A DNA stretch of 64,000 nucleotides from Acidobacteriota bacterium (GTDB lineage Bacteria; Acidobacteriota; Thermoanaerobaculia; Multivoradales; JBCCEF01). This document shows, in pieces, positions 17,630 to 33,794 of the stretch. Below the pieces are notes generated by a model. It worked only from the letters and a program-made list of their open reading frames with translations. It made no database searches and was not told where the DNA came from. Positions within the stretch are counted from its first letter, which is position 1. Every line of letters begins with the position of its first letter. The position numbers and the translations under genes are program-made. The stretch spans positions 1-64,000 of the forward strand of contig JBCCHV010000006.1 of assembly GCA_039028635.1 (NCBI GenBank), written 5' to 3'.

Positions 17630-20600
17630 CTACGATCGCTGCCGCCGCAGCACCCGGACACCGACCGCCGCCAGCAGCAGGAAGGTGAGGAGCAGGCCCC
17701 ACTGGCCGAGGGTCGGGATATCGGCGATCAGACCGACCACCGCCTCGGCCTGGTTGTCGGCCGGCTCGGCATCGTCGCCGTTGTTGCCGTCGTCGGCGAT
17801 GAAGGCCTGGTTGCTGATGCTGTCTCCGGCCCCGCCGCCGATCACCTCGACCACGAAGAGGGCGCTGCCGGACTCACCGGCCGCCACCGTGCCGAGGTCG
17901 AGATCGCAGTCACTGCCGGCGGTCTCGTCCGGCAGGCAAACCCAGCCGGCGGTGCTGCTGGCGGCGACGAAGACCGTCAGGTCCGGCACCCTCTCGGTCA
18001 GGATCACGCCGGTCGCCTCGCGGCTGCCAACGTTCTCGTAGTCGAGGGTGTAAGTGATGAATTCACCGATCCGCACCGAGCCAAGATCGCTGGTCTTGGT
18101 CAGCCGGAGATCCGGCGCATCCACCACCACCCGGTCGCTGCAGTCGTTGTTGTCTTCGGCGAGCTCGGCGGCGACGTTCGCCGGATCGACCGCGCAGACA
18201 CCTCCGTCCGCCGGGTTTTCGAGGGCCCCCGCGGCGGTCGGCGTCGCCATCCCGCGCACGGCGACGTGGGCTCCTGGAGCCAACTCCACCGCGCCGCCGG
18301 TGGCGACACAGGTGAGCACCTGGGCACTCACCCCACAGACCAGGTTGGCGGCTCCGGTCACTCCTGTGATGGCGTCGATGGCGAAGGTACCGTAGGTCGC
18401 GCCGGACGGCAGATCGTCCCGCAAGAACACCTCACCGGAGGCGAAAACCGCCACTCCCGGCCCGTCATTGAGGACGTCCAGGGTCCACTCGAAAGGCACT
18501 CCCAAGCTGCCCATGCCAAGGTTGTCGTTGAGCTTCTCGACGATCAGATCCGGCCCCTGGGCCACCACCGTGTCGCCACAGCCGTTGTTGCCTTCGTCGG
18601 TCTCCGCCTCGACGCCATCGGGATCGACGGCGCAAACCTCGCCGGTGCGCGGATTGACCAACGAACCGATCGCCGTCGGGGTGACCACGACGGCCACCGT
18701 GAAGCTGCCGCCGTCGGCGAGATCGACGTTGCCACCGTCCGCCGTGCACTCCAGATCGCCGCTGGCGATGGCGCAGCTCACGGTGCCGCTGCCGGAGAGA
18801 CCGCTCGAGGCAGTCACCGCCGGCGTACCGTAGGTGACGTTGCCGGTCGGCAGGGCATCGAGGAGGATGCGAGACGCCGCCGGGAAGCTGGCGACGGCGC
18901 CGCCGTTGCTGACCGTGATCGACCAGTCGAAGGGCACCCCGACGCCGCCACTGCCGGAGGTGTCGTTGATCTTGCTCGAGGTCAAGTCCGGTGATGCCGC
19001 CACGACGACGCTGTCGGAGCAGGTGTTGTTGGTCTCGTCCTCTTCTTCCAGGGCACCGCCCGGGTCGACGGCGCAGGCACCGCCGGCGCGCGGATTGTCG
19101 AAGGTGCCGGCGCCGCTCGGATCGGCCGTCAACTCGACCGTGAAGGTGCCGCTGCCGGCGGCGATCACCACGTCTCCGCCGCTCGCCTGACACAACAGGT
19201 CGATGGAGCTTAGCGTGCAGTCGATGGTGCCGCTGCCGGAGATCCCGGCCTGGGCACCGACGGTCGCGCCGGAGTAGCTGATCGCGCCGCCCGGCAGGCT
19301 GTCGCCGAGAATCGCCTGACCGTCGAGGTAGGTGGCGTCGCCCGCACCGCCGTTGGTGACCGTCAGCGACCAGGTCCAGGTCGCCGCCTCCTCCGTCGCG
19401 CCACCGACATCGTTGCTCTTCACCACCGCCAGGTCCGGCAGGGCCACCACGTCGACCACATTGCCGCAGCCGTTGTTGCCTTCGGCGGTCTCGAGCTCAG
19501 CGTCATCCGGATCGACCGCACAGACGCCGCCGGAACGCGGATTGACGAAGCTGGCCTCGGCCTGCGGCGTGGCGTCGAAGCTCACCGTGAAGGTGCCGCC
19601 GACGGCGAAGTCGACCCCACCGCCGCTCGCCGTACAGGTGAGATCCGAGCCGGCGATGGCGCAGGCGATGGTGCCCGCTCCCGAGACCCCCGACTGGGCC
19701 GAAACCGCCGCCGTGCCGTAGGTCATGTCCGTATCCGGAAGCTGATCGAGCAGGATCCGGGCAGCGCTCGGGAAGCTCGCTGCAGCGCCGCCGTTGGTCA
19801 CCACCAGAGACCACTCGAAGGGCGCCCCGACGACGCCCGAGCCGGTCAGGTCGTTGCTCTTCACCACCGTCAGGTCCGGCGAGGCCGCGACATCGACCGA
19901 GTTCGAGCAGCCGTTGTTGCTTTCGTCCGCCTCGTCGATCACCGCCCCCGGGTCGACGGCACAGGTACCGCCGGAGCGCGGGTTGGCAAACGTTCCCGCC
20001 ATCGACGGATCGACCGAGAAGCTCACCGTGAAGCTGCCGGTGGTCGCCGCCAGCACGACATCACCGCCGCTGGCGCTGCAGGTCAGCACAGCGGTGGCGA
20101 TGGTGCAGGCGACGGTACCGCCACCGGAGACGCCGGTGACCGCACCCACCGACGCCGTGCCGTAGGCGAGATCGCTCGCCGGCAGCTCATCCGTGAGGAT
20201 GGTCTCGCCGGCGGCGAAGGTCGTCGCCACCGCCCCCTGATTGGCGACCGTCACCGACCAGGTCCAGGTCGCCGCCTCCTCCGTCGAGCCGGAGACGTCG
20301 TTGCTCTTGGTCGCCGTCAGATCAGGCAGCTCGAAGACCTCCACCGAATCCGAGCAGCCGTTGTTGCCCTCGGCGTTCTCGAGCTCGGCGTCGTCCGGAT
20401 CGACCGCACAGGTGCCGCCGGAACGCGGATTGTCGTAGGTCGCGGCGCTCGTCGCCGTGGCGTCGAAGGTCACCGTGAAGGTGCCACCGTCACCGAAGTC
20501 GACGTTGCCGCCGCTCGCCGTGCAGGTGAGCACCGAGGTGGCGATAGCGCAGGCGACGGTGCCACTGCCGGAGAGCCCCGACGTCGCCGAGACGGCGGCG

Positions 20601-23539
20601 GAACCATAGGTGATGTCCGTCGTCGGCAGCTCGTCGAGCAGGATGCGCGCACCGCTGGCGAAGCTCGCTACGCCGCCGCCGTTGCTGACCACCAGGCTCC
20701 ACTGGAAGGTCTCGTTGACGACGCCGGTGCCGCCGACATCGTTGCTCTTGGCAACGGTCAGATCCGGCGACGCCACCACCGCCACCGAATCGCTGCAGGC
20801 GTTGTTGGTTTCGTTGGCCTCGGTGATCAAGGCGGAAGGATCGATGGCGCAGGCGCCACCGGAACGCGGATTGTCGTAGGTCGCGGCCGCCGAAGGGTCG
20901 ACCGTCACGGTCACCGTGAAGGCGACCCCGCTGCCGAGGATGGCCGTACCGCCGCTCGCCGTGCAGGTGAGGTCGCCGCTGACGATGCCGCAGCTCACCG
21001 ATCCGGTGCCCGACAGCGCCGCCCCGGGGGTCACCACCGGGGTGCCGTAGGCCAGACCGGAAGCCGGCAGGTTGTCGCTCAGGATGAGCTCGCCGGCATC
21101 GAAGGTCGCCGTCCCGAGGCCGCCGTTGGCCACCTGCAGCGACCAGGTCCAGGTCGCCGCTTCTTCCGTCGCGCCGCCGACGTCGTTGCTCTTCACCACC
21201 GTCAGGTCCGGCAGCGGCGGCGGCACGCTCACCGAATCGGAGCAGGTGTTGTTGCTCTCGTCGATTTCGAAGGCCTGGTTGGTCGGGTCGGTGATGCAGT
21301 TGCCGCTGCTACGCGGGTTGTCGAAGGTGCCGAAGGTGGTCGGTGTCGCCGCGACCTCGACCGTGAAGAAGCCGTTGACGGCGATGATCGCGTTGCCGGC
21401 GTCGGGCACGCAGGACAGCACGTCCGAGGCCACCGAACAGTCGATGGCGGTGCCTCCGGCCGAGTAGGTGATACCGCTCTCGGAGGTGATCGACGGTGTC
21501 CCGTAGGTCATGCCGCTGTCCGGCAGGGTGTCGAGCAGCAAGAACCCACCGGTGCCGACGGTAGCCGCGGCGGTGCCCCCGTTGCGCACCGTGATCGACC
21601 AGGTGAACGGCGTCCCGACGCTACCGGTGCCGGAGGTGTCGTTGCTCTTGATCGCCGTCAGATCCGGCGAAGGCGTCACCATCACCGAGTTGCTGCAGGC
21701 GTTGTTGCCTTCGTCGCCCTCGCTGATCACCCCTCCCGGGTCGACGCTGCAAGCCCCCCCGGAGCGCGGGTTGTCGAAGGTGCCGAAGGTGGTCGGAGTG
21801 ACCGGCAAGGTCACCAGGAAGCTACCGCTGCCGGCGGCGAGGACCACAGTGCCGCCGCTGGCACTGCAGGTCAGGTCCGAGCCGATCACGCCGCAACTGA
21901 TGCTGCCGGTACCGCTGATGCCGACCTGCGAGCCCACCACCGGCGAGCCGTAGGTCAGACCACTGGCCGGCAAGTTGTCGCTCAGGATCGCATCACCGGC
22001 AGAGAAAGTCGCCGGCTGGGTGCCACCATTGGCCACCTGGAAGGTCCAATCCCAGTCGCCACCCTGGCCGACGGTGCCACCGACATCGTTGGTCTTGCCG
22101 ACGGTCAGATCCGGCCCCACGACGGCGGTGCCGACGACCACCGAGTTGGAGCACTGATTGTTGCTCTCATCGGACTCGGTCACGGTGTTGTTGCCGTCGA
22201 CCGTACAAGCCCCGCCGGAGCGCGGATTGTCGAAGGTGCCGGCCACCGAGGCGGTAGCCGCGAAGGTCACCGTGAAGGTGCCGTTGGGAGCGATGGTCAA
22301 ACCGCCTCCGGCGGTCGTGCAGGTCAAGAGCGCGGTGGTGATCGAGCACGAGATGGAAGCTCCGACATCGAAGGTGACGCCACTCACCGCGCCCACCGAT
22401 GGCGAGCCGTAGGTCATGCTGGCGTCCGGCAGGGCATCGAGCAGCAGAAACGCTGCCGAGGGAACGACGGCATCGACAGTCCCCTGATTGCGCACCGTGA
22501 TCGACCAGTTGAAGGGCGTGCCGACGAGGGCGCTCCCGCCCGCGTCGTTGGATTTCGTCGCCACCAGATCCGGCGACGGGTTGACCACCATCGAGTCGCT
22601 GCAGGAGTTGTTGGTCTCGTTGCCCTCGGTGATCGCGCCATCGGGATCGATCGCACAGACGCCGCCGCTGCGCGGGTTGTCGAAGGTGCCGGTCACGGTG
22701 GCGTCGACCCTGACGGAGACGGTGAAGCCACCGGTCGCCGCCGCCAGGTTGACGTTGCCTGCGGAGGCGATGCAAGTGAGCACCGAGGTCGCAACGGCGC
22801 AAGAGATCGTGCCGCTGCCGGTGATGTCGGTCTGGGAGCTCACCGAGACCATGCCGTAGGTGAGACCGCTGTCGGGCAGGCTGTCACGCAGGATGACCTC
22901 GCCGGAAGCGAAGTCGGCGGCCGCCGAGCCGCCGTTGGCGACCTGAAGGGACCAGTCCCAATCGACACCAAGCAGGACCGAGCCGAGGCGGTTGTTGCTC
23001 TTCACCACCGTCAAGTCCGGACCGACCGCTCCGGTGGTCACGGTCACCGAATCGGAACAAAGATTGTTGGTGTCGTCCGTTTCGGGGATGGCGTTGACCA
23101 GATCGGCTATGCAAATGCCGCTGGTGCGCGGGTTGTCGAAGGTGCCCGCCGTGGTCGGCGTCACCGGGATCGTCACCGTGAAGGATCCGCCGGCCGAGAT
23201 GTCGACATTGCCGGTGGCCGGCGTGCACTGCAGCACAAAGGCCGCCGAGATGGTGCAAGAGATGGCACTGCCGGTCACCCCGGATTGACTCACCGAAGGT
23301 GTGCCGTAGGTGAGGCCGGCATTGGGGAGGACGTCGGTCAGCATGAAGCCGCCGAAGCCGAAGGTGGCGGTGGCATCGCCGCCATTCGCCACCACGATGG
23401 ACCAGTTGAAGGGCGTGCCGACGGTGCCGTTGCCGGTGAGGTCGTTGCTCTTGGTGGCGGTGAGATCAGGCTGAGCCCAGAGCGGGGTGCCCAACATCGA
23501 GACCAACAACAGAAGCGCGAACGGAAAACGCTGCCGCAT
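17630..23539 (-). CDS. Giant secreted repeat protein with DUF11-like domain and IPTL-CTERM sorting signal
   Basis: A 1969-residue exported protein. The signal peptide is residues 1-23 (ends PLWAQ). Twelve tandem CARDB-like beta-sandwich repeats of about 148 residues follow. Each begins PDLTxxKSND, contains a WS.xVxNGG core and a FDNPRSGG turn, and ends NNxCSDSV, with four conserved cysteines that could form two disulfides. Most repeats alternate between two kinds (PFxWS and TWTWS/DWDW). A DUF11-like domain then carries TSDLGSVRIGEFITYTL, and the protein ends with IPTLGQWG, a hydrophobic helix and RRQR, the IPTL-CTERM sorting signal. ATG was chosen over an upstream in-frame start because GGGGAGG precedes it and the signal peptide begins there. 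Probably a surface adhesin or structural protein; that role is inferred from architecture. Confidence 0.93.
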   Translation of the reverse strand: MRQRFPFALLLLVSMLGTPLWAQPDLTATKSNDLTGNGTVGTPFNWSIVVANGGDATATFGFGGFMLTDVLPNAGLTYGTPSVSQSGVTGSAISCTISAAFVLQCTPATGNVDISAGGSFTVTIPVTPTTAGTFDNPRTSGICIADLVNAIPETDDTNNLCSDSVTVTTGAVGPDLTVVKSNNRLGSVLLGVDWDWSLQVANGGSAAADFASGEVILRDSLPDSGLTYGMVSVSSQTDITGSGTISCAVATSVLTCIASAGNVNLAAATGGFTVSVRVDATVTGTFDNPRSGGVCAIDPDGAITEGNETNNSCSDSMVVNPSPDLVATKSNDAGGSALVGTPFNWSITVRNQGTVDAVVPSAAFLLLDALPDASMTYGSPSVGAVSGVTFDVGASISCSITTALLTCTTAGGGLTIAPNGTFTVTFAATASVAGTFDNPRSGGACTVDGNNTVTESDESNNQCSNSVVVGTAVVGPDLTVGKTNDVGGTVGQGGDWDWTFQVANGGTQPATFSAGDAILSDNLPASGLTYGSPVVGSQVGISGTGSISCGVIGSDLTCSASGGTVVLAAGSGSFLVTLPVTPTTFGTFDNPRSGGACSVDPGGVISEGDEGNNACSNSVMVTPSPDLTAIKSNDTSGTGSVGTPFTWSITVRNGGTAAATVGTGGFLLLDTLPDSGMTYGTPSITSESGITYSAGGTAIDCSVASDVLSCVPDAGNAIIAVNGFFTVEVAATPTTFGTFDNPRSSGNCITDPTNQAFEIDESNNTCSDSVSVPPPLPDLTVVKSNDVGGATEEAATWTWSLQVANGGLGTATFDAGELILSDNLPASGLAYGTPVVTPGAALSGTGSVSCGIVSGDLTCTASGGTAILGSGVAFTVTVTVDPSAAATYDNPRSGGACAIDPSALITEANETNNACSDSVAVVASPDLTVAKSNDVGGTGVVNETFQWSLVVSNGGGVASFASGARILLDELPTTDITYGSAAVSATSGLSGSGTVACAIATSVLTCTASGGNVDFGDGGTFTVTFDATATSAATYDNPRSGGTCAVDPDDAELENAEGNNGCSDSVEVFELPDLTATKSNDVSGSTEEAATWTWSVTVANQGAVATTFAAGETILTDELPASDLAYGTASVGAVTGVSGGGTVACTIATAVLTCSASGGDVVLAATTGSFTVSFSVDPSMAGTFANPRSGGTCAVDPGAVIDEADESNNGCSNSVDVAASPDLTVVKSNDLTGSGVVGAPFEWSLVVTNGGAAASFPSAARILLDQLPDTDMTYGTAAVSAQSGVSGAGTIACAIAGSDLTCTASGGGVDFAVGGTFTVSFDATPQAEASFVNPRSGGVCAVDPDDAELETAEGNNGCGNVVDVVALPDLAVVKSNDVGGATEEAATWTWSLTVTNGGAGDATYLDGQAILGDSLPGGAISYSGATVGAQAGISGSGTIDCTLSSIDLLCQASGGDVVIAAGSGTFTVELTADPSGAGTFDNPRAGGACAVDPGGALEEEDETNNTCSDSVVVAASPDLTSSKINDTSGSGGVGVPFDWSITVSNGGAVASFPAASRILLDALPTGNVTYGTPAVTASSGLSGSGTVSCAIASGDLECTADGGNVDLADGGSFTVAVVVTPTAIGSLVNPRTGEVCAVDPDGVEAETDEGNNGCGDTVVAQGPDLIVEKLNDNLGMGSLGVPFEWTLDVLNDGPGVAVFASGEVFLRDDLPSGATYGTFAIDAITGVTGAANLVCGVSAQVLTCVATGGAVELAPGAHVAVRGMATPTAAGALENPADGGVCAVDPANVAAELAEDNNDCSDRVVVDAPDLRLTKTSDLGSVRIGEFITYTLDYENVGSREATGVILTERVPDLTVFVAASSTAGWVCLPDETAGSDCDLDLGTVAAGESGSALFVVEVIGGGAGDSISNQAFIADDGNNGDDAEPADNQAEAVVGLIADIPTLGQWGLLLTFLLLAAVGVRVLRRQRS
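18116..23470 (-). repeat. Twelve tandem coding repeats of about 445 bp
   Basis: Internal repeats of the IPTL-CTERM protein. Each unit encodes about 148 residues. Units 1-11 alternate in type, giving a higher-order unit of about 890 bp. Conserved blocks such as those coding for DNPRSGG recur with silent and replacement differences, so the array grew by duplication and has since diverged. Confidence 0.85.
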
Positions 23540-27886: not shown

Positions 27887-28207
27887 ATGATGCCGGCCAC
27901 CATCTGCGGCGTTTTCGCCGCCTGCCTGGCCCTCGGTGGCACCATGGCGCACCAGGGTAAGGAAAGCCCGCTGGCGAGACACCCGGGCAGGCGTTCGTGG
28001 GTGCTCTTCGCGGGCTGGATTCTCCTCGCCCTGTGCTTGGCCGCCTTCATCGCCCAGCAGGGAGGTGAAGTGGGAGCCGCCTACTTCCTCATCTGGGCGG
28101 CCCTGGCCGCACTATTCGCCACCGCCTGGCTGAGCCTTTGGCCGCGATCATCGCTGTGGATCGCCGTCCTCTGGCTCACCGCCGGTGCGGTCGCCTGGAT
28201 CCTCTGA
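27887..28207 (+). CDS. Small membrane protein, DUF3325-like
   Basis: 106 residues with three hydrophobic segments (about 3-20, 37-56 and 60-104 as a pair). It starts five bases after the receptor gene; two adjacent ATGs (27887 and 27890) are possible starts. Small size, helix pattern and position beside a DUF3649-like and a PepSY gene match the DUF3325 family found in siderophore-receptor clusters. Its molecular role is unknown; helping the reductase or the inner-membrane step of iron uptake is inference. Confidence 0.68.
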   Translation: MMPATICGVFAACLALGGTMAHQGKESPLARHPGRRSWVLFAGWILLALCLAAFIAQQGGEVGAAYFLIWAALAALFATAWLSLWPRSSLWIAVLWLTAGAVAWIL

Positions 28208-28216
28208 GGAGGAGCG

Positions 28217-28543
28217 ATGACAACGGCTACCCCCTCCCCTCGCAAGACCGTGAAGGCGGCGTCGAAGGGCGCACCGACCAAGGTTCGCTGGCGCGGCCGG
28301 ATCACCGCCAGCTTGCTCGGTGGTACCCTGCTGTCGTTTGCGATCGCCGTGGCCATCACCATCTACATGCCGGGATTCGATGGCCTCGATCAGGCTTTTC
28401 AGGGCGGCCTCGCCTTGGTCCTCATCTGGCCGATGGTGATGCTGTGGATTCTCTTCGCGACCTCCACCGGACGGGCCTGGCTGAGAGCGCTGGTGCCGCT
28501 CGTCCTGTTCGTCGCCCTCGACATCGCGGGGCTCTTGCTATGA
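28217..28543 (+). CDS. Small membrane protein, DUF3649-like
   Basis: 108 residues: a basic N-terminal tail of about 30 residues, then three transmembrane helices. The segment WPMVMLWILFATSTGRAWL resembles the conserved block of DUF3649 proteins, which accompany PepSY and TonB receptors in iron-uptake loci. A GAGGAG ribosome binding site precedes the ATG, and the stop overlaps the PepSY gene start (ATGA), which implies coupled synthesis of the two membrane proteins. Confidence 0.7.
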   Translation: MTTATPSPRKTVKAASKGAPTKVRWRGRITASLLGGTLLSFAIAVAITIYMPGFDGLDQAFQGGLALVLIWPMVMLWILFATSTGRAWLRALVPLVLFVALDIAGLLL

Positions 28544-30090
28544 AGAAGACCATCGGTCCCTTTCGCCTCGACACTCGCCGCTATCGGCTGTTCTACGACA
28601 TCCATTCTTGGGTCGGGGTCATCGGCGGCCTGATCTTCTTCGTCTGCTGCTTCAGCGGCACCATCGCCCTCTTCGAGCACGACCTCATCTCCTGGGAGAA
28701 TCCCACTCTCCGGCGCACCCCGGGAGCCGAGTCCCTCGGCACCGATGCGCTGATCGAGCACGCCGAGGAGCACCTCGGTGGTTTCGAGGAGACCGTCTTC
28801 GTCGAGCTACCGTCGGAGGCCAATGCCGCCTTCCACGCCCGCACCTTCGGCGAAACCGGAGTGCGCCGGGTCAATCTCGATCCCGCCACCGGCCAGCCGA
28901 TCGCGACGAAGGAAGACAGCGCCTTCGACTTTCTCACCCATCTCCATACGGACCTGCATTTGCCACGCCCCTGGGGGCGCTACCTCGTCGGCCTCATCGG
29001 AATCTTCCTGATGATGGCGTTGATCTCCGGCGCCATGGCCCACCCGAAGGTGTTCAAAGAGCTGTTCCTGTTGCGCTGGCGCCCGAGCCTGCGGATGAGC
29101 TTCAGCGACCTCCACAAGCAAGCCGGCGTCTGGGGACTGGTCTTCGGCGGCGTGATGGCCTTCACCGGCGCCGTCATCGGCCTGCTCGGCCTGTTCGCCC
29201 CGATCATGGTGCTGAGCGCCTTCGGTGGCGATGTCGGGAAGGCGACGGAAGCGTTCTCCGGACCACCGCGAGAAGCCACCGGAAACCCGGCCATCATGCT
29301 CTCCATCGCGGAGCTCGCCGAGACCACGGAAGCGGCCAATCCCGGATTCGAGGCGCACAGCTTCCTGCTCCGCCACTACGGTGACGAGTCGGCGGAGGTC
29401 GGGCTCAACCTCGAGCCCACCCCTTACCGCAAGCTGGTGGCCGGTGAAACCCACCGCATCAGCTTGGTGAGCGGCGAGACCTTCCATCGCAGCTCCTTCA
29501 CCGGCAAGGGTGCCGGCTCCCGTCTGTTCGGCGCCATGCAGCCGGTCCACTACGCCCTTTTCGGAGGCCTCGGCCTGAAGCTGCTCTACTTCATTTCGGG
29601 CCTGGTTCTGTCCTTGGGCATCGTCAGCGGCTCGTTGATCTGGCTCGAGAAGCGCCAGCCGTCGCCACGCCAGGTCGGGGCCAAGCCGCGCCATCGTTGG
29701 CTCTCCAAGCTGACCCTCGGGGTCTGCGTGGGCCAGGTGGTGGCATCGGCCGCCGCCATCGCCGCCGGCCGTTTCATGGCGGAATCTCTCGAGCCGGTCT
29801 TCTGGAGCACCTGGGTGCTCGGCCTCATCGTGGCCTACGTGATTCCCAATGGATTCCTGGTCTGTCGCGCCGGCGGCTTCTTGACCGCCGCCCTTCTCGC
29901 CCTCACCGCCGCCGGCGACCTCACCATGTCGCCGCTGCTCACGCCGGAGGTGATCCGCATCGACCTCACCTTCCTGGCCCTCGCCGCCTGCACGCTGGCG
30001 ATCAGCGTCGTCACCCCGCGGCGCTCGAAGCGCCGCCAGCCGGCCCCGGAGCTGAGCCAGTCCCTGACGCCGTCGGAGTCCCCCAGCTAG
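28540..30090 (+). CDS. PepSY-domain membrane protein, putative ferric-chelate reductase
   Basis: A 516-residue inner-membrane protein of the PepSY_TM family. The first helix region RLFYDIHSWVGVIGGLIFF includes the conserved His of this family and is followed by CFSGTIALFEHDL. Further helices lie at about 148-170, 195-225, 340-370 and in the last 150 residues. Periplasmic PepSY segments lie between (for example LDPATGQPI). Relatives are proposed to reduce ferric siderophores in the inner membrane. The frame is open 134 codons upstream, but the ATG at the DUF3649-like stop gives the proper start. The TAG stop is the first three bases of the structured repeat that follows, so the extreme C-terminus may have been altered by it. 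Confidence 0.9.
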   Translation: MKKTIGPFRLDTRRYRLFYDIHSWVGVIGGLIFFVCCFSGTIALFEHDLISWENPTLRRTPGAESLGTDALIEHAEEHLGGFEETVFVELPSEANAAFHARTFGETGVRRVNLDPATGQPIATKEDSAFDFLTHLHTDLHLPRPWGRYLVGLIGIFLMMALISGAMAHPKVFKELFLLRWRPSLRMSFSDLHKQAGVWGLVFGGVMAFTGAVIGLLGLFAPIMVLSAFGGDVGKATEAFSGPPREATGNPAIMLSIAELAETTEAANPGFEAHSFLLRHYGDESAEVGLNLEPTPYRKLVAGETHRISLVSGETFHRSSFTGKGAGSRLFGAMQPVHYALFGGLGLKLLYFISGLVLSLGIVSGSLIWLEKRQPSPRQVGAKPRHRWLSKLTLGVCVGQVVASAAAIAAGRFMAESLEPVFWSTWVLGLIVAYVIPNGFLVCRAGGFLTAALLALTAAGDLTMSPLLTPEVIRIDLTFLALAACTLAISVVTPRRSKRRQPAPELSQSLTPSESPS

Positions 30091-30497
30091 CAGGCTGCTG
30101 AAAAAGCCGCGTGGCGGCTTCTTCAGCGCCTGCTGTCTATTTCAGGGGCGCCCGGCCAGGGGGGCTAAAAGGCGCCCCCCTCAGGCCTACGCGGCCCGGC
30201 TACGCGCATGTCGCGCGCCTTCACCCCAATCCAGGGCGGCCCCGTCCTCGGCGCCCTCGGCGCCGCCTCGCCCGCTGGGCTCGGGGTCCCACGCGGGCCG
30301 GAAGTCCTCGAACCTGAACTTTTTCAGCGCTGCTAGCTGTTTTTTCCGAGAGGGGCTGCGCGCCCCTGACTGCGCGTCCCGCTCCGGCCCAAGAAGCGCG
30401 GTTCTTGGGCCTCCTCTCCCGTCGCGGCGGCTGAGCCGCCGCCGAGCCCTTCTGGGCTCGGTCGCAGGTTGCCGATGAGTTTTTCAGCAACCTGCTA
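30088..30497. mobile_element. Structured 410-bp repeat with terminal inverted repeats (MITE-like)
   Basis: Left end TAGCAGGCTGCTGAAAAA and right end TTTTTCAGCAACCTGCTA are inverted copies matching at 17 of 18 positions, and CTAG lies at both outer edges. A third related end, CTTTTTCAGCGCTGCTAG, occurs at 30319-30336, so the element may be two joined units. Inside is a chain of stems: 30089-30134 (about 20 bp with one bulge and one mismatch), 30158-30181, 30351-30367, 30386-30411 (10 bp), 30426-30440 and 30442-30461 (8 bp, tetraloop). No protein-coding frame with support. Reads as a non-autonomous repeat or a structured RNA-forming element. Confidence 0.65.
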
Positions 30498-30510
30498 GCA
30501 GGCTGCTGAA
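30483..30510. repeat. 28-bp near-palindrome at the right end of the structured repeat
   Basis: The arms TTCAGCAACCTGC and GCAGGCTGCTGAA meet at a central TA, with one mismatched pair. It is made of two head-to-head copies of the element end and lies 18 bases after the stop of the convergent protease gene, where it could act as that gene's 3' hairpin. There is no T-run in the protease direction. Confidence 0.55.
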
Positions 30511-30527
30511 GAGCCGCAGACGCGAGT

Positions 30528-31943
30528 TCAAGGACCGCCGACGGTCGCGTCCCAGCCGCTGGTGTCGCCGGTTTCGAAGCCGTTTTCGAAGATCGTCTCG
30601 ACGAAGGCCGGTAGGCAGGAGGCAACGCTGTCGAGATAGGCCCGCATGCGCTGCGGCGCCCGCTCGCTGCGCTCGCCGTAGAATCCCGCTCGCCCCAACC
30701 ACAGGCTGACGTTGCTGGTGCCGCCGGGCTGCAGTGAGCAGTAGCTCATGATGCCCCCACCATCGACCGGCATGCTGACTGGGCCGCTGTAGCAGCCGTC
30801 CTGGCTCCCCCAACAGCGATCGATCGGCGGATCGCCCGGCTGCGGACTGTCGTTGTAGCAGTGGGTGTGGGGAGACCCGAAGGTGTGGCCGAGCTCGTGG
30901 GAGAAGGTGAACAGATCGAGCACCGCCAGCGGGTTCGAAGGCTCCCACCGGCCGCTGATCTCGCCGGTCACCCCGTAGCCCATCACGGTGTCGCACAGGC
31001 TGCCGACGAAGGCGACACCGCCCCCCATCGCCTTGCCGGTGAGGAAGTGGACCAACGAGCGCTCGACCTCGCCACGGTTGGCGAGCCAGTAGTCCCGCAC
31101 CTCGAAGACCGCCGGCACGACGCTGGTGGCGGTCCAAGGATCGGAGCTCGTGCCGCCGCTGTAGAGGTAGAGATCGCTGATCTGGGGCACGGCGTCGATA
31201 TCGCGCAAGAAGATCGCCGAAACCGCCGCCACCAAATCCGCCACATAGGCGGAGGCGGCGCTCGCGGACCCCAGGCGGTCGAAGAACTCGGCATCGGTCT
31301 CGACGGCGAGATCCGCCGCCGTCGGCCGACCGGCTCCTCGACCCGAGATCGCATTGCCTGGGGCCGCCACCGTCGACACCGAGCTCGAGCCTCGCAAGGG
31401 CGCCGGCAGGGCGCTGTTGCCGCAGCTCCAATCGGCAGCGATCGGGCCGACCGCCGCCAGCTCGATGGCGGCCGCACCGCCTCGCGGCGTGGCCAGCAGG
31501 AAGAGCTGCTCCTGGGCCGACACCAAACCCCGCCATCGACCCTCGGCGTCGACCGCCAGGAAGGCGAGAGAGTCTTCCTCTCCGGCCACCCGCCCCTGGA
31601 AGTGGCGGCGCGCGGTTGGTTTGTGGAGGGTGCGCTCGCCACCGGAACCGATCTCCGTCACCCGCGCCCCCGGCTTCCAGACCTGCATGCGCTCGAGCTG
31701 CAACCGCACCGGCACCTCGCCGGCGAAGAGAGACAGCGCAGGGATCACGAGGGTAGAGCTCTCGAACACCTCGGTCAGACTGCGATCGAGCCGCCACGGC
31801 ACGGTAGCGCCGCGAGGCCCAGTGTCCGGCTGGGCTTGGGGCACCTGGGCTGGGGCGGGAGGGACAACAAGGGCCGTGAGGCTCACCGCCGCGGCGGCGA
31901 GAGCAGCGATCGGCGCGCCACCGGCGCCTCGACGAGTCGTCAT
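30528..31943 (-). CDS. Secreted reprolysin-like zinc metalloprotease with DGFE-type tail
   Basis: A 471-residue exported protease. The signal peptide ends near PPAPAQ (about residue 33). A prodomain-like region of about 175 residues follows. The catalytic domain (about 215-440) contains the extended zinc motif HELGHTFGSPH (349-359) and the Met-turn IMSYC (M399), so it is a metzincin of the reprolysin-like (M12) kind. Several cysteines near the active site (CYND, RCWGSQDGC) suggest disulfides. It ends IFENGFETGDTSGWDATVGGP, a tail shared with three other exported proteins here. The ribosome binding site AGGAGAGG precedes ATG. A role in extracellular protein breakdown is inferred. Confidence 0.92.
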   Translation of the reverse strand: MTTRRGAGGAPIAALAAAAVSLTALVVPPAPAQVPQAQPDTGPRGATVPWRLDRSLTEVFESSTLVIPALSLFAGEVPVRLQLERMQVWKPGARVTEIGSGGERTLHKPTARRHFQGRVAGEEDSLAFLAVDAEGRWRGLVSAQEQLFLLATPRGGAAAIELAAVGPIAADWSCGNSALPAPLRGSSSVSTVAAPGNAISGRGAGRPTAADLAVETDAEFFDRLGSASAASAYVADLVAAVSAIFLRDIDAVPQISDLYLYSGGTSSDPWTATSVVPAVFEVRDYWLANRGEVERSLVHFLTGKAMGGGVAFVGSLCDTVMGYGVTGEISGRWEPSNPLAVLDLFTFSHELGHTFGSPHTHCYNDSPQPGDPPIDRCWGSQDGCYSGPVSMPVDGGGIMSYCSLQPGGTSNVSLWLGRAGFYGERSERAPQRMRAYLDSVASCLPAFVETIFENGFETGDTSGWDATVGGP

Positions 31944-32020
31944 ATCCAGCCTCTCCTGGCTTGCGGCCCCAAGCGGGATTCATCATAGGCTGAATCGACA
32001 TCCGGCGACCAGCGGAAACG

Positions 32021-32054
32021 AAAAAGGCCCCGCTCCGCAGAGCAGGGCCTTTTT
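32021..32054 (-). terminator. Bidirectional Rho-independent terminator
   Basis: The outer arms AAAAAGGCCC and GGGCCTTTTT are perfect complements, continued inward by CGCTC and GAGCA around a short loop. The T-run on both strands makes it bidirectional. It ends the DUF4097 gene 19 bases after its stop and insulates the protease promoter. Confidence 0.88.
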
Positions 32055-32073
32055 CAGCAACGGATCCGTTGGA

Positions 32074-33192
32074 TCAGCGCGGACTCAGGCGCACATTGCC
32101 GGAACCGGTGTCGACATCGATGCGGGTGTGCTGGTCGCCGCGCTCGGCCCCCACCAGCTCGCGACCGCTCTTGATCAGCTCCGCGTCGCGGTAGCCGATG
32201 GTCAGGTTACCGCTGCCCTGGTCGGAGCGAATCTTGAAGGAGGCCTCGGCATCGCCCAGGATGGTGACGTTGCCGGAGCCGGTGTCCGCCACCACCTTGC
32301 GGGCCCAGTCGAGGGGACTGTCGACAGTGATGTTGCCGGAACCGGTGTCGAAGTCCATTTCCTCGGCGTCGAAGTCTTCGACCCGGATATTGCCGGAACC
32401 GGTGTCGATCATCACGCTGCGCACCCGGCCGCTGCTCACCTGTACATTGCCAGAGCCGGTGTCGACCTCCAGCTCACCCCCGCGGACGGCGGCGATCTCG
32501 ACATCGCCGGAGCCGGTGTCGATCCCGACATCGCCATCGACGGAGCCGGTCGAAACGTTGCCAGAGCCGGTGTCGACCATCAGGTCACCTTCGAGATCGG
32601 CCAGGGTGACGTCGCCGGAGCCAGTGTCGAGGTCGTGGGACGCCTGCAACGACTCGACCTCGATCCCACCGACGAGGTTGCGCATGCCGACATCGGCACC
32701 GGACGGCACCTCGATGGTGAGGTGCGCATAGAGCACTGGAGCTCCGGAGGGCTTGCGGGTGACGGTCACCTTCTTCCCCAGGTAATAGGAGCTCGAGCTA
32801 CCGTACCGGAGGAGCCCCATGCCCTTGCGGGGATAGGAGAACTTCCGGTGCTCGTCGACGGGATAGGAGAGGGCCCACAGGTCGACCCCCTTCTTGGTGC
32901 GATACTCGATCCAATCCATGCCTTCGAGAAGCTCCTGGGTCTCGCTGTCCGAGTCCCCCTTGGCGTGGATCTCGGCGGTCACCCGAACCTCGCTCCCGGA
33001 GCCTTCGACGATCTCGACGGTCCCGGCGAGATTGGCCAGGCGGACGTCCGCCGGGAAGGTCCGCTCGAGGGTCCGGCTCTCGGTCGCCACCGGGCCGGAG
33101 ACGCCGGCTTCGATGTCATAGGTGCAGGAAACGTTGAGCATCGCCAGGGCGGCGACGCAGAGCAAGATCCAGCGGGGCGCTTGGCGCAACAT
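32074..33192 (-). CDS. DUF4097-type exported protein with DTGSGN beta-helix repeats
   Basis: A 372-residue exported protein. The N-terminus RWILLCVAALAMLNVSC suggests a lipoprotein, though the lipobox is not ideal. A mixed region of about 165 residues follows, and then a repeat domain with eight copies of DTGSG(N/D)(V/I) plus one degenerate QGSGNL, spaced about 19-20 residues apart. This is the pattern of DUF4097 and putative-adhesin beta-helices. No catalytic residues are evident. ATG was chosen over an upstream one because AGAGGAGAG precedes it and the hydrophobic leader starts there. A surface or periplasmic structural role is likely. It is monocistronic, with a strong terminator downstream. 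Confidence 0.88.
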   Translation of the reverse strand: MLRQAPRWILLCVAALAMLNVSCTYDIEAGVSGPVATESRTLERTFPADVRLANLAGTVEIVEGSGSEVRVTAEIHAKGDSDSETQELLEGMDWIEYRTKKGVDLWALSYPVDEHRKFSYPRKGMGLLRYGSSSSYYLGKKVTVTRKPSGAPVLYAHLTIEVPSGADVGMRNLVGGIEVESLQASHDLDTGSGDVTLADLEGDLMVDTGSGNVSTGSVDGDVGIDTGSGDVEIAAVRGGELEVDTGSGNVQVSSGRVRSVMIDTGSGNIRVEDFDAEEMDFDTGSGNITVDSPLDWARKVVADTGSGNVTILGDAEASFKIRSDQGSGNLTIGYRDAELIKSGRELVGAERGDQHTRIDVDTGSGNVRLSPR

Positions 33193-33239
33193 GATTCTCT
33201 CCTCTCGCGAGTGTCCGTCCATTCCAACCTTCCTAGCCC

Positions 33240-33794
33240 CTACGGAATCTTCTCCGAGAAAGTTCCAGATTGGCTCTGCCGCCGACCATAGCGCAGGTGC
33301 TGAACGCCGTTCGAGTAGCTCTTGCTGGCCTCGAGCAGAAGATCCTCGGAAGTCGCGATCGCCTCGAAGAGGGGCACCCCTCGGCCGAGCAACCGAGGCA
33401 TCAAAAAGAGCTCGTAGCGGTCGATGCGGCCGAGCCGTCGGAAGGAGGTGGCGAGGGCCGTGCCGCCGACCAGCCAGGCCCGGCGGTGGCCCCCTGCGGC
33501 AAGCTCCTCGAGAACCGGCCCGATGGCCCGCGCGGTCACCTCGACGCCGGCGACGTCACTTGCCGGCAGCCGGGACGAGAACACCACGCTAGGTTGTTCA
33601 TAGGGCCACGCTCCGAAGCCCAAGACCTGCTCATAGGTTCGGCTGCCCATCAACAGCACATCGATGCCGGCGATGAAGCGGCCGTAGCCGTAGTCTTCGT
33701 CGGGCCCCTGAAACGGGCTCAGCCAGTCGACGCCGCCATCGGCCGTCGCGATGAAGCCATCGACACTGGCTGCCACGTAGTAGACGACTTCCAC
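33240..33794 (-). CDS. RibD C-terminal domain / dihydrofolate-reductase-like protein
   Basis: A 184-residue cytosolic protein of the RibD_C reductase fold, usually NADPH-dependent. Family features: VYYVAASVDGFIATADGGVDWL at the start, VLLMGSRTYEQVL, VVFSSRLP, LVGGTALATSF and the late LFLMPRLLGRGVPLFE. The GTG at 33794, behind AAGGGAG, gives the normal N-terminus; longer in-frame extensions are not conserved in style. The substrate is unknown, because many members of this family act in neither riboflavin nor folate synthesis. Divergent from the SLC12 gene, leaving about 255 bases of shared upstream DNA. Confidence 0.87.
   Translation of the reverse strand: MEVVYYVAASVDGFIATADGGVDWLSPFQGPDEDYGYGRFIAGIDVLLMGSRTYEQVLGFGAWPYEQPSVVFSSRLPASDVAGVEVTARAIGPVLEELAAGGHRRAWLVGGTALATSFRRLGRIDRYELFLMPRLLGRGVPLFEAIATSEDLLLEASKSYSNGVQHLRYGRRQSQSGTFSEKIP

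Follow-up and report, generated by a model that had tools for sequence, protein, structure and literature searches.

The 64,000-nucleotide stretch of acidobacterial DNA analysed here (the window) contains a gene-less element at 30087-30510, the intergenic span of a convergent gene pair. Gene calls were made throughout with our own codon-usage script and not with a standard gene finder. By these calls, the left gene ends in a TAG stop codon (30088-30090), and the right gene, on the minus strand, ends at 30528. No gene is called inside the element, and the overlap of open reading frames with it is mechanical. A preliminary description of the locus had placed here, between convergent genes and without a coding frame, a string of hairpins bounded by inverted ends, and this picture holds. 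The inverted ends (30083-30105 and 30480-30502) are 23 nt long and 91% complementary. The predicted RNA fold of 30087-30499 has a free energy of -230.9 kcal/mol, compared with -195.5 +/- 6.3 for 100 dinucleotide shuffles, none of which is as low (z = -5.6), in keeping with the earlier impression that such dense pairing exceeds chance. The additional head-to-head copy of the end reported at the right is also present, forming a palindrome at 30483-30510 with 17-nt arms (94%), as is a third end-like sequence, CTGAACTTTTTCAGCGCTG-CTAG, at 30314-30336.

All features of the element are described on the plus strand. The left CTAG (30087-30090), a putative target copy, contains the TAG of the upstream stop codon and is followed by the left terminal inverted repeat CAGGCTGCTGAAAAA (30091-30105), which is identical to the ends of IS5-family insertion sequences in other phyla (vide infra). 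The first hairpin, H1 (30088-30135; 21 pairs in the fold), begins within the stop codon, and is succeeded by a T-rich tract, TCTATTTC (30136-30143), that is terminator-like on the basis of its sequence and the T statistic of the family. The structured core of the first unit (type B) extends from 30144 to 30313, and its degenerate right end, which is also the junction with the second unit, occupies 30314-30336, with CTAG at 30333-30336 and the H1 of the second unit missing. The second unit (type A) comprises a T-rich tract, CTGTTTTTTCC (30337-30347), and a structured core (30348-30463) with stems in the fold at 30350-30367, 30386-30411, 30426-30440 and 30443-30460. The last hairpin, H5 (30464-30495), has as its right arm the right terminal inverted repeat TTTTTCAGCAACCTG (30480-30494). 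Finally, the right CTAG, the second putative target copy, lies at 30495-30498, and an isolated extra end, CAGGCTGCTGAA (30499-30510), is a remnant of a neighbouring unit.

Two separate matches were obtained with a covariance model (R1) derived from 44 other copies, at 30151-30293 (E 6.3e-7) and at 30342-30470 (E 5.9e-11), and the rest of the window is without a match below E 0.007. The suggestion that two units are joined here is thus upheld: a gene-less dispersed element is present as two fused units, first type B and then type A, the latter without its own H1. The fused form recurs elsewhere in the genome, with two copies covering almost the whole query (C10, 87% identity; C11, 80%) and two covering most of it (C63 and C26). 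A complete unit consists of the TAG within CTAG, H1, the T-rich tract, a four-stem core of ~110 nt, H5 and CTAG, and the two-unit form may have arisen when a type-B and a type-A unit recombined through their CTTTTTCAGC arms.

Other repetitive sequences were observed in the window. About a dozen tandem repeats of ~444 bp each, with 60-80% identity, are found at 18137-23479 and probably represent a large repetitive protein. Six direct repeats of 54-63 bp are found at 32267-32601, within a minus-strand ORF (32074-33222), and correspond to DTGSGNV peptide repeats. An Rfam search of 28000-33000 returned nothing even at E 1, except for two sub-threshold Thr_leader matches outside the element, on opposite strands at 31967-32056 (E 0.0064) and 32018-32070 (E 0.48).

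The element is present in well over a hundred places of the genome. The 14-mer AGCAGGCTGCTGAA, allowing at most one mismatch, occurs at 142 forward and 146 reverse positions (288 near-exact matches in 6.28 Mb), compared with two and two for a control in which the same letters are reversed. With the whole stretch as query, at least 79 matches were obtained at E <= 0.001 when the best 40 of 440 first-look candidates were scored, and many contigs terminate within a copy. Alignment of the copies with their flanks defines type A (GTCCGCT at the left, GATGAG at the right) and type B (GCCGCGT and CCTGAAC, respectively), and most aligned copies of these types carry CTAG on both sides. A sample of 101 stretches (2.064 Mb), with positions fixed beforehand and the window included, contains 102 ends and 26 paired units of 165-404 bp. 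CTAG flanks 65 of these ends; within the first 1.264 Mb sampled, 9 of 16 units have it at both ends. Paired units occur in two orientations, and insertion at CTAG is junction-precise. Solo first hairpins of ~50 bp without a core (L257 5174-5219, L088 and L093) were also observed, with CTAG or a near match on either side, and are possibly the smallest mobile form. In one type-B copy (L061; G000 C54, ~33030-33647), an IS4-type insertion splits the element.

The ends (CTAG-CAGGCTGCTGAAAAA...) are the terminal inverted repeats of IS5-family (NF033581-type) insertion sequences, and the same ends are found on CTAG-flanked miniature elements in many phyla. When one genome per species was searched with CTAGCAGGCTGCTGAAAAA, at least 119 stretches were detected, with eight in IMG/VR; the matches listed include Acidobacteria, Proteobacteria, Nitrospira, Planctomycetes, Chloroflexi, Gemmatimonadales, Rokubacteria and others. 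Among the matches listed, the two ends are mostly 105-230 bp apart, and 30 of 65 pairs have CTAG at each side, one of the two being CTAG by design of the search. Identical flanks other than CTAG, which would be a clean sign of target duplication, were seen in a single one of these 65 pairs (TTAG/TTAG), and this scarcity is counted against the explanation favoured below. A transposase lies beside the end in 13 of 127 listed loci that were fetched by the end pattern alone, its start being 460 nt from the end in L230 and ~220 nt or less in the other 12. Complete insertion sequences were found in Gemmatimonadales (L140; 1.30 kb, 371 aa) and Terriglobia (L141; 1.28 kb, 367 aa), with proteins that combine DUF772 with a DDE domain and match the NCBIfam IS5-family model NF033581 at 251 and 277 bits, respectively (cut-off 140).

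Proteins of the NF033581 type occur in 16 of 98 relatives, and in two (G009 and G093) the gene adjoins the sole end found there. The search detected no NF033581/IS5-type transposase in this genome (G000) or in the same-genus genome G001. Given IS5-type ends and no such transposase in the genome, the element is classified as non-autonomous and MITE-like, and is an orphan of an IS5-type transposon; its multiple copies, transposon-type ends and CTAG on either side support the MITE-like reading offered in the preliminary description. The shared ends suggest transposition by an NF033581-type transposase: an IS5-family enzyme of this type, now absent here, would recognise the 15-19-bp ends and insert the element into CTAG, duplicating it. 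Two more distant genomes have their own 220-400-bp families with the same ends and unrelated interiors (L089, L107 and L111 in G082; L090 and L095 in G091). Other candidate parents were rejected, including an IS701-type transposase (PF13546 has no match in the genome) and the sole DDE_Tnp_1 gene, that of the IS4-type insertion in L061, which has different ends and lies inside the element.

It is also conceivable, if improbable, that a REP-associated tyrosine (HUH, Y1) transposase moves the element as single-stranded DNA, recognising H1 and H5, with CTAG as the cleaved tetranucleotide and not a DDE-type duplication. Two Y1_Tnp genes are present in the genome, one of which matches the NCBIfam REP-transposase model below cut-off; hairpins adjoin TAG at both ends of the element, and the ~50-bp solo H1 copies are compatible with such a mechanism. 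The portion of PMC3733652 available describes GTAG REPs that often supply TAG stops and have complementary stem variants, as well as acidobacterial Y1 transposases associated with TIR repeats. However, neither Y1 gene has end-like sequences or the core within ~1.5 kb, and both were rejected as parents for this lack of linkage. Moreover, the ends are full inverted repeats that agree letter for letter with those of IS5-type insertion sequences in other phyla, and the REP tag is unpaired in the same portion of that source, whereas TAG here sits in a stem. Downstream of a REP-type Y1 gene, a cluster of repeated GGGTGGCACCTGTGTGCC hairpins (L062 2520-2920) probably represents that gene's own REP family.

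The coincidence of CTAG with a stop codon is not confined to the window. Among TAG-flanked ends in the sample, that TAG terminates a predicted gene in 33 of 71 cases; the corresponding figure for other CTAG sites is 175 of 764 (odds ratio 2.9, p = 4e-5). At least one stop is touched by 18 of the 26 units, and two stops by three of the 26, where each of two convergent genes terminates in the CTAG. The tetranucleotide is itself rare, with those 764 other sites in the 2.064-Mb sample compared to 6,292 expected from base composition. Across phyla, the TAG flank closes an open frame of 450 nt or more at 52 of 167 ends, compared with 66 of 815 control CTAG sites (p = 8e-14, with loci that are not fully independent, as some genomes contribute more than one). 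Provided that CTAG is the target, the stop codon predates the insertion. Statistically, CTAG, scarce in this GC-rich genome, frequently includes a TAG stop, so that insertions fall at gene ends and leave the protein intact. Comparison of orthologues between G001 and G000 agrees with this, as the last residue is the same with or without the element (for example, TAG plus the element versus TGA). In the search for empty sites that had been recommended, orthologues in the sister genome lack the element and keep the same protein end, and no exact empty site was found at the DNA level in the genus.

A stop codon, a GC-rich hairpin and a T-rich tract constitute the anatomy of an intrinsic terminator placed right behind a gene, as H1 and its tract form a stable hairpin and then a T-rich stretch after the stop; the earlier proposal of a termination element is supported to this extent. 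The fold of H1 has z < -3 in 31 of 49 core-bearing copies, most of the others being without a clear H1, and the 12 nt between H1 and the core are 46% T in both G000 and G001. A simple terminator scan of the window left H1 unflagged and returned only 30458-30475 (one found versus 0.4 expected). Of 49 copies, 36 have a gene ending on the H1 side and 16 have one ending on the opposite side, a count that is indicative only and for which the distance windows differ between the two sides. From its sequence, then, the element may carry its own end-of-transcript signal: RNA of H1 and the T-rich tract would act as an intrinsic terminator at the gene end, and termination would keep an insertion harmless or useful and the stems paired despite sequence drift.

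The stems do remain paired as their sequences change. In G001, the first hairpin varies (TAGCAGGACTGAGAAA, TAGCAGGGCTGGAAGG, TAGCAGGTTGATGCC, TAGCAATCAGAGAGCG and others) and the second arm always matches; G000 too has copies with such varying first hairpins. Core sequences were compared in an alignment of 44 (19 and 25) hand-picked from 76 non-redundant hits in G000 and 41 in G001, respectively. In this alignment, 96.7% of cells pair, both sides have changed in 14 of 23 pairs, and double-change cells number 103, compared with 25.8 after shuffling and 10-21 with a slid partner. The 28 type-A units analysed (of 29 found) are 93.6% paired, with 37 double-change cells versus 11.1. By eye, the length of one G run within the core changes together with that of two C runs. 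The structured-RNA reading of the preliminary description is thus borne out by covariation; that description had held that a single copy with stems not conserved in relatives would weaken it and the mobile reading alike, and the element is multi-copy, with stems that covary.

We infer that selection caused this covariation, and template switching is a serious alternative. Template switching at quasi-palindromes is an established process in replication, and would likewise yield compensatory changes. The element could then be mobile and have no terminator function, with stems perfected by quasi-palindrome correction and not by selection, which would account for loops and stems that vary freely. 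This nevertheless seems unlikely, as it fails to predict either the conserved T-rich tract between H1 and the core or the excess of genes that end towards H1.

The core was detected with its covariance model (E <= 0.001) in five of 98 genomes: at least 38 hits each in G000 and G001, 20 each in G016 and G023, and one in G040. G016 and G023 belong to a different family of the same order, and neither is matched by the end pattern. The core is combined with unrelated H1 and H5 hairpins, in place of the IS5-type ends, in many copies of G001 and in some of G000. Core and ends therefore have partly separate histories, and the core may have been carried by more than one set of ends. Outside the family, the core is absent from all 63 distinct elements that have these ends. 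No contig in IMG/VR has the exact core pattern, which was sought as an indication of phage carriage.

The distribution of the core also bears on whether it is a structured RNA or 3'-UTR element passed on vertically, with a cellular role and seldom copied, on which transposon-like ends are a later overlay. That the core, but not the ends, is conserved across two families of the order would fit this, as would the strong covariation and the one position common to both species (L284 and L358). Positions turn over, however: seven array genes of G001 have an orthologue in the G000 sample, and at none of these orthologues is an array present, the L358/L284 pair being excluded from this count because it was found through the G000 copy. 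A vertical cis-regulatory element was rejected on this ground, and the two orientations and the junction-precise insertion at CTAG are likewise contrary to vertical inheritance, which we consider very doubtful. Rather, presence in another family and positions that are not kept indicate that the core is older than the genus, and that it moves.

Several known systems resemble parts of this element. MITEPsy1 of Pseudomonas syringae, as described in the available part of PMC3189936, is a non-autonomous element with demonstrated transposition, 18-nt terminal repeats containing CTGAAAAAGCC and a 4-bp duplication of CTAG or YTAA, and is thought to derive from ISPsy2 (family given as 'IS5?'). It is similar in its end letters, lack of autonomy and CTAG target, but is 100 nt long, uniform and present in few copies, and that part of the source reports no multi-hairpin core, stop-codon association or covariation. 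In the accessible portion of PMC3049150, the pneumococcal BOX repeats are likewise modular, dispersed and strongly folded, and the SPRITE repeats are terminator-like and enriched near gene 3' ends; no CTAG target or IS5-type ends are named there for either, and SPRITE is AT-rich with AAAA/TTTT ends. The GTAG REP/BIME and TIR repeats are also dispersed palindromes that frequently supply TAG stops and have complementary stem variants, but GTAG REP/BIME differ in their 20-40-bp size, unpaired tag and association with a Y1 gene, which is absent for the element here (PMC3733652, in part). NF033581-type insertion sequences share the ends and CTAG flanks, but are ~1.29 kb long with a 367-371-aa DUF772 and DDE transposase, and none is present in this genome. 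The parts of PMC2229807 and PMC5896051 available contain nothing decisive for the comparison. Within the literature searched, mostly outside subscription journals, no paper with the end sequence was found, and titles and abstracts did not tie CTAG-targeted MITEs to stop codons. Precedents thus exist for every feature; no instance of their combination was found in this literature.

Taken together, the sequence evidence points most likely to a mobile structured element that would serve as a stop-codon-associated terminator, with mobility deduced from the ends and a putative terminator function. The best explanation, to which we assign a confidence of 0.62, is that a non-autonomous, structured mobile element is present in the window as two fused units, shaped by IS5-type insertion, siting at stop codons, putative termination and recombination. 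Counted against it, besides the scarcity of identical non-CTAG flanks, are the lack of an IS5-type transposase in G000 and G001, the partly separate histories of core and ends, the absence of the core from the 63 elements outside the family, and the terminator scan that left H1 unflagged. A more specific form can be put forward only tentatively: a mobile terminator whose lineage homes to stops via the CTAG target and fires after the stop, with stems under selection, and whose cargo passes between sets of ends and evolves separately. If true, this would be a simple route to a harmless transposon in a compact genome, by means of an uncommon tetranucleotide that is often retained as a stop, plus a supplied terminator. 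Because the end sequence occurs in many bacterial phyla, the principle is testable widely. The core further provides a large natural collection of terminator-like hairpins that covary, and is a case in which selection and template switching may be told apart as the cause of perfect palindromes.
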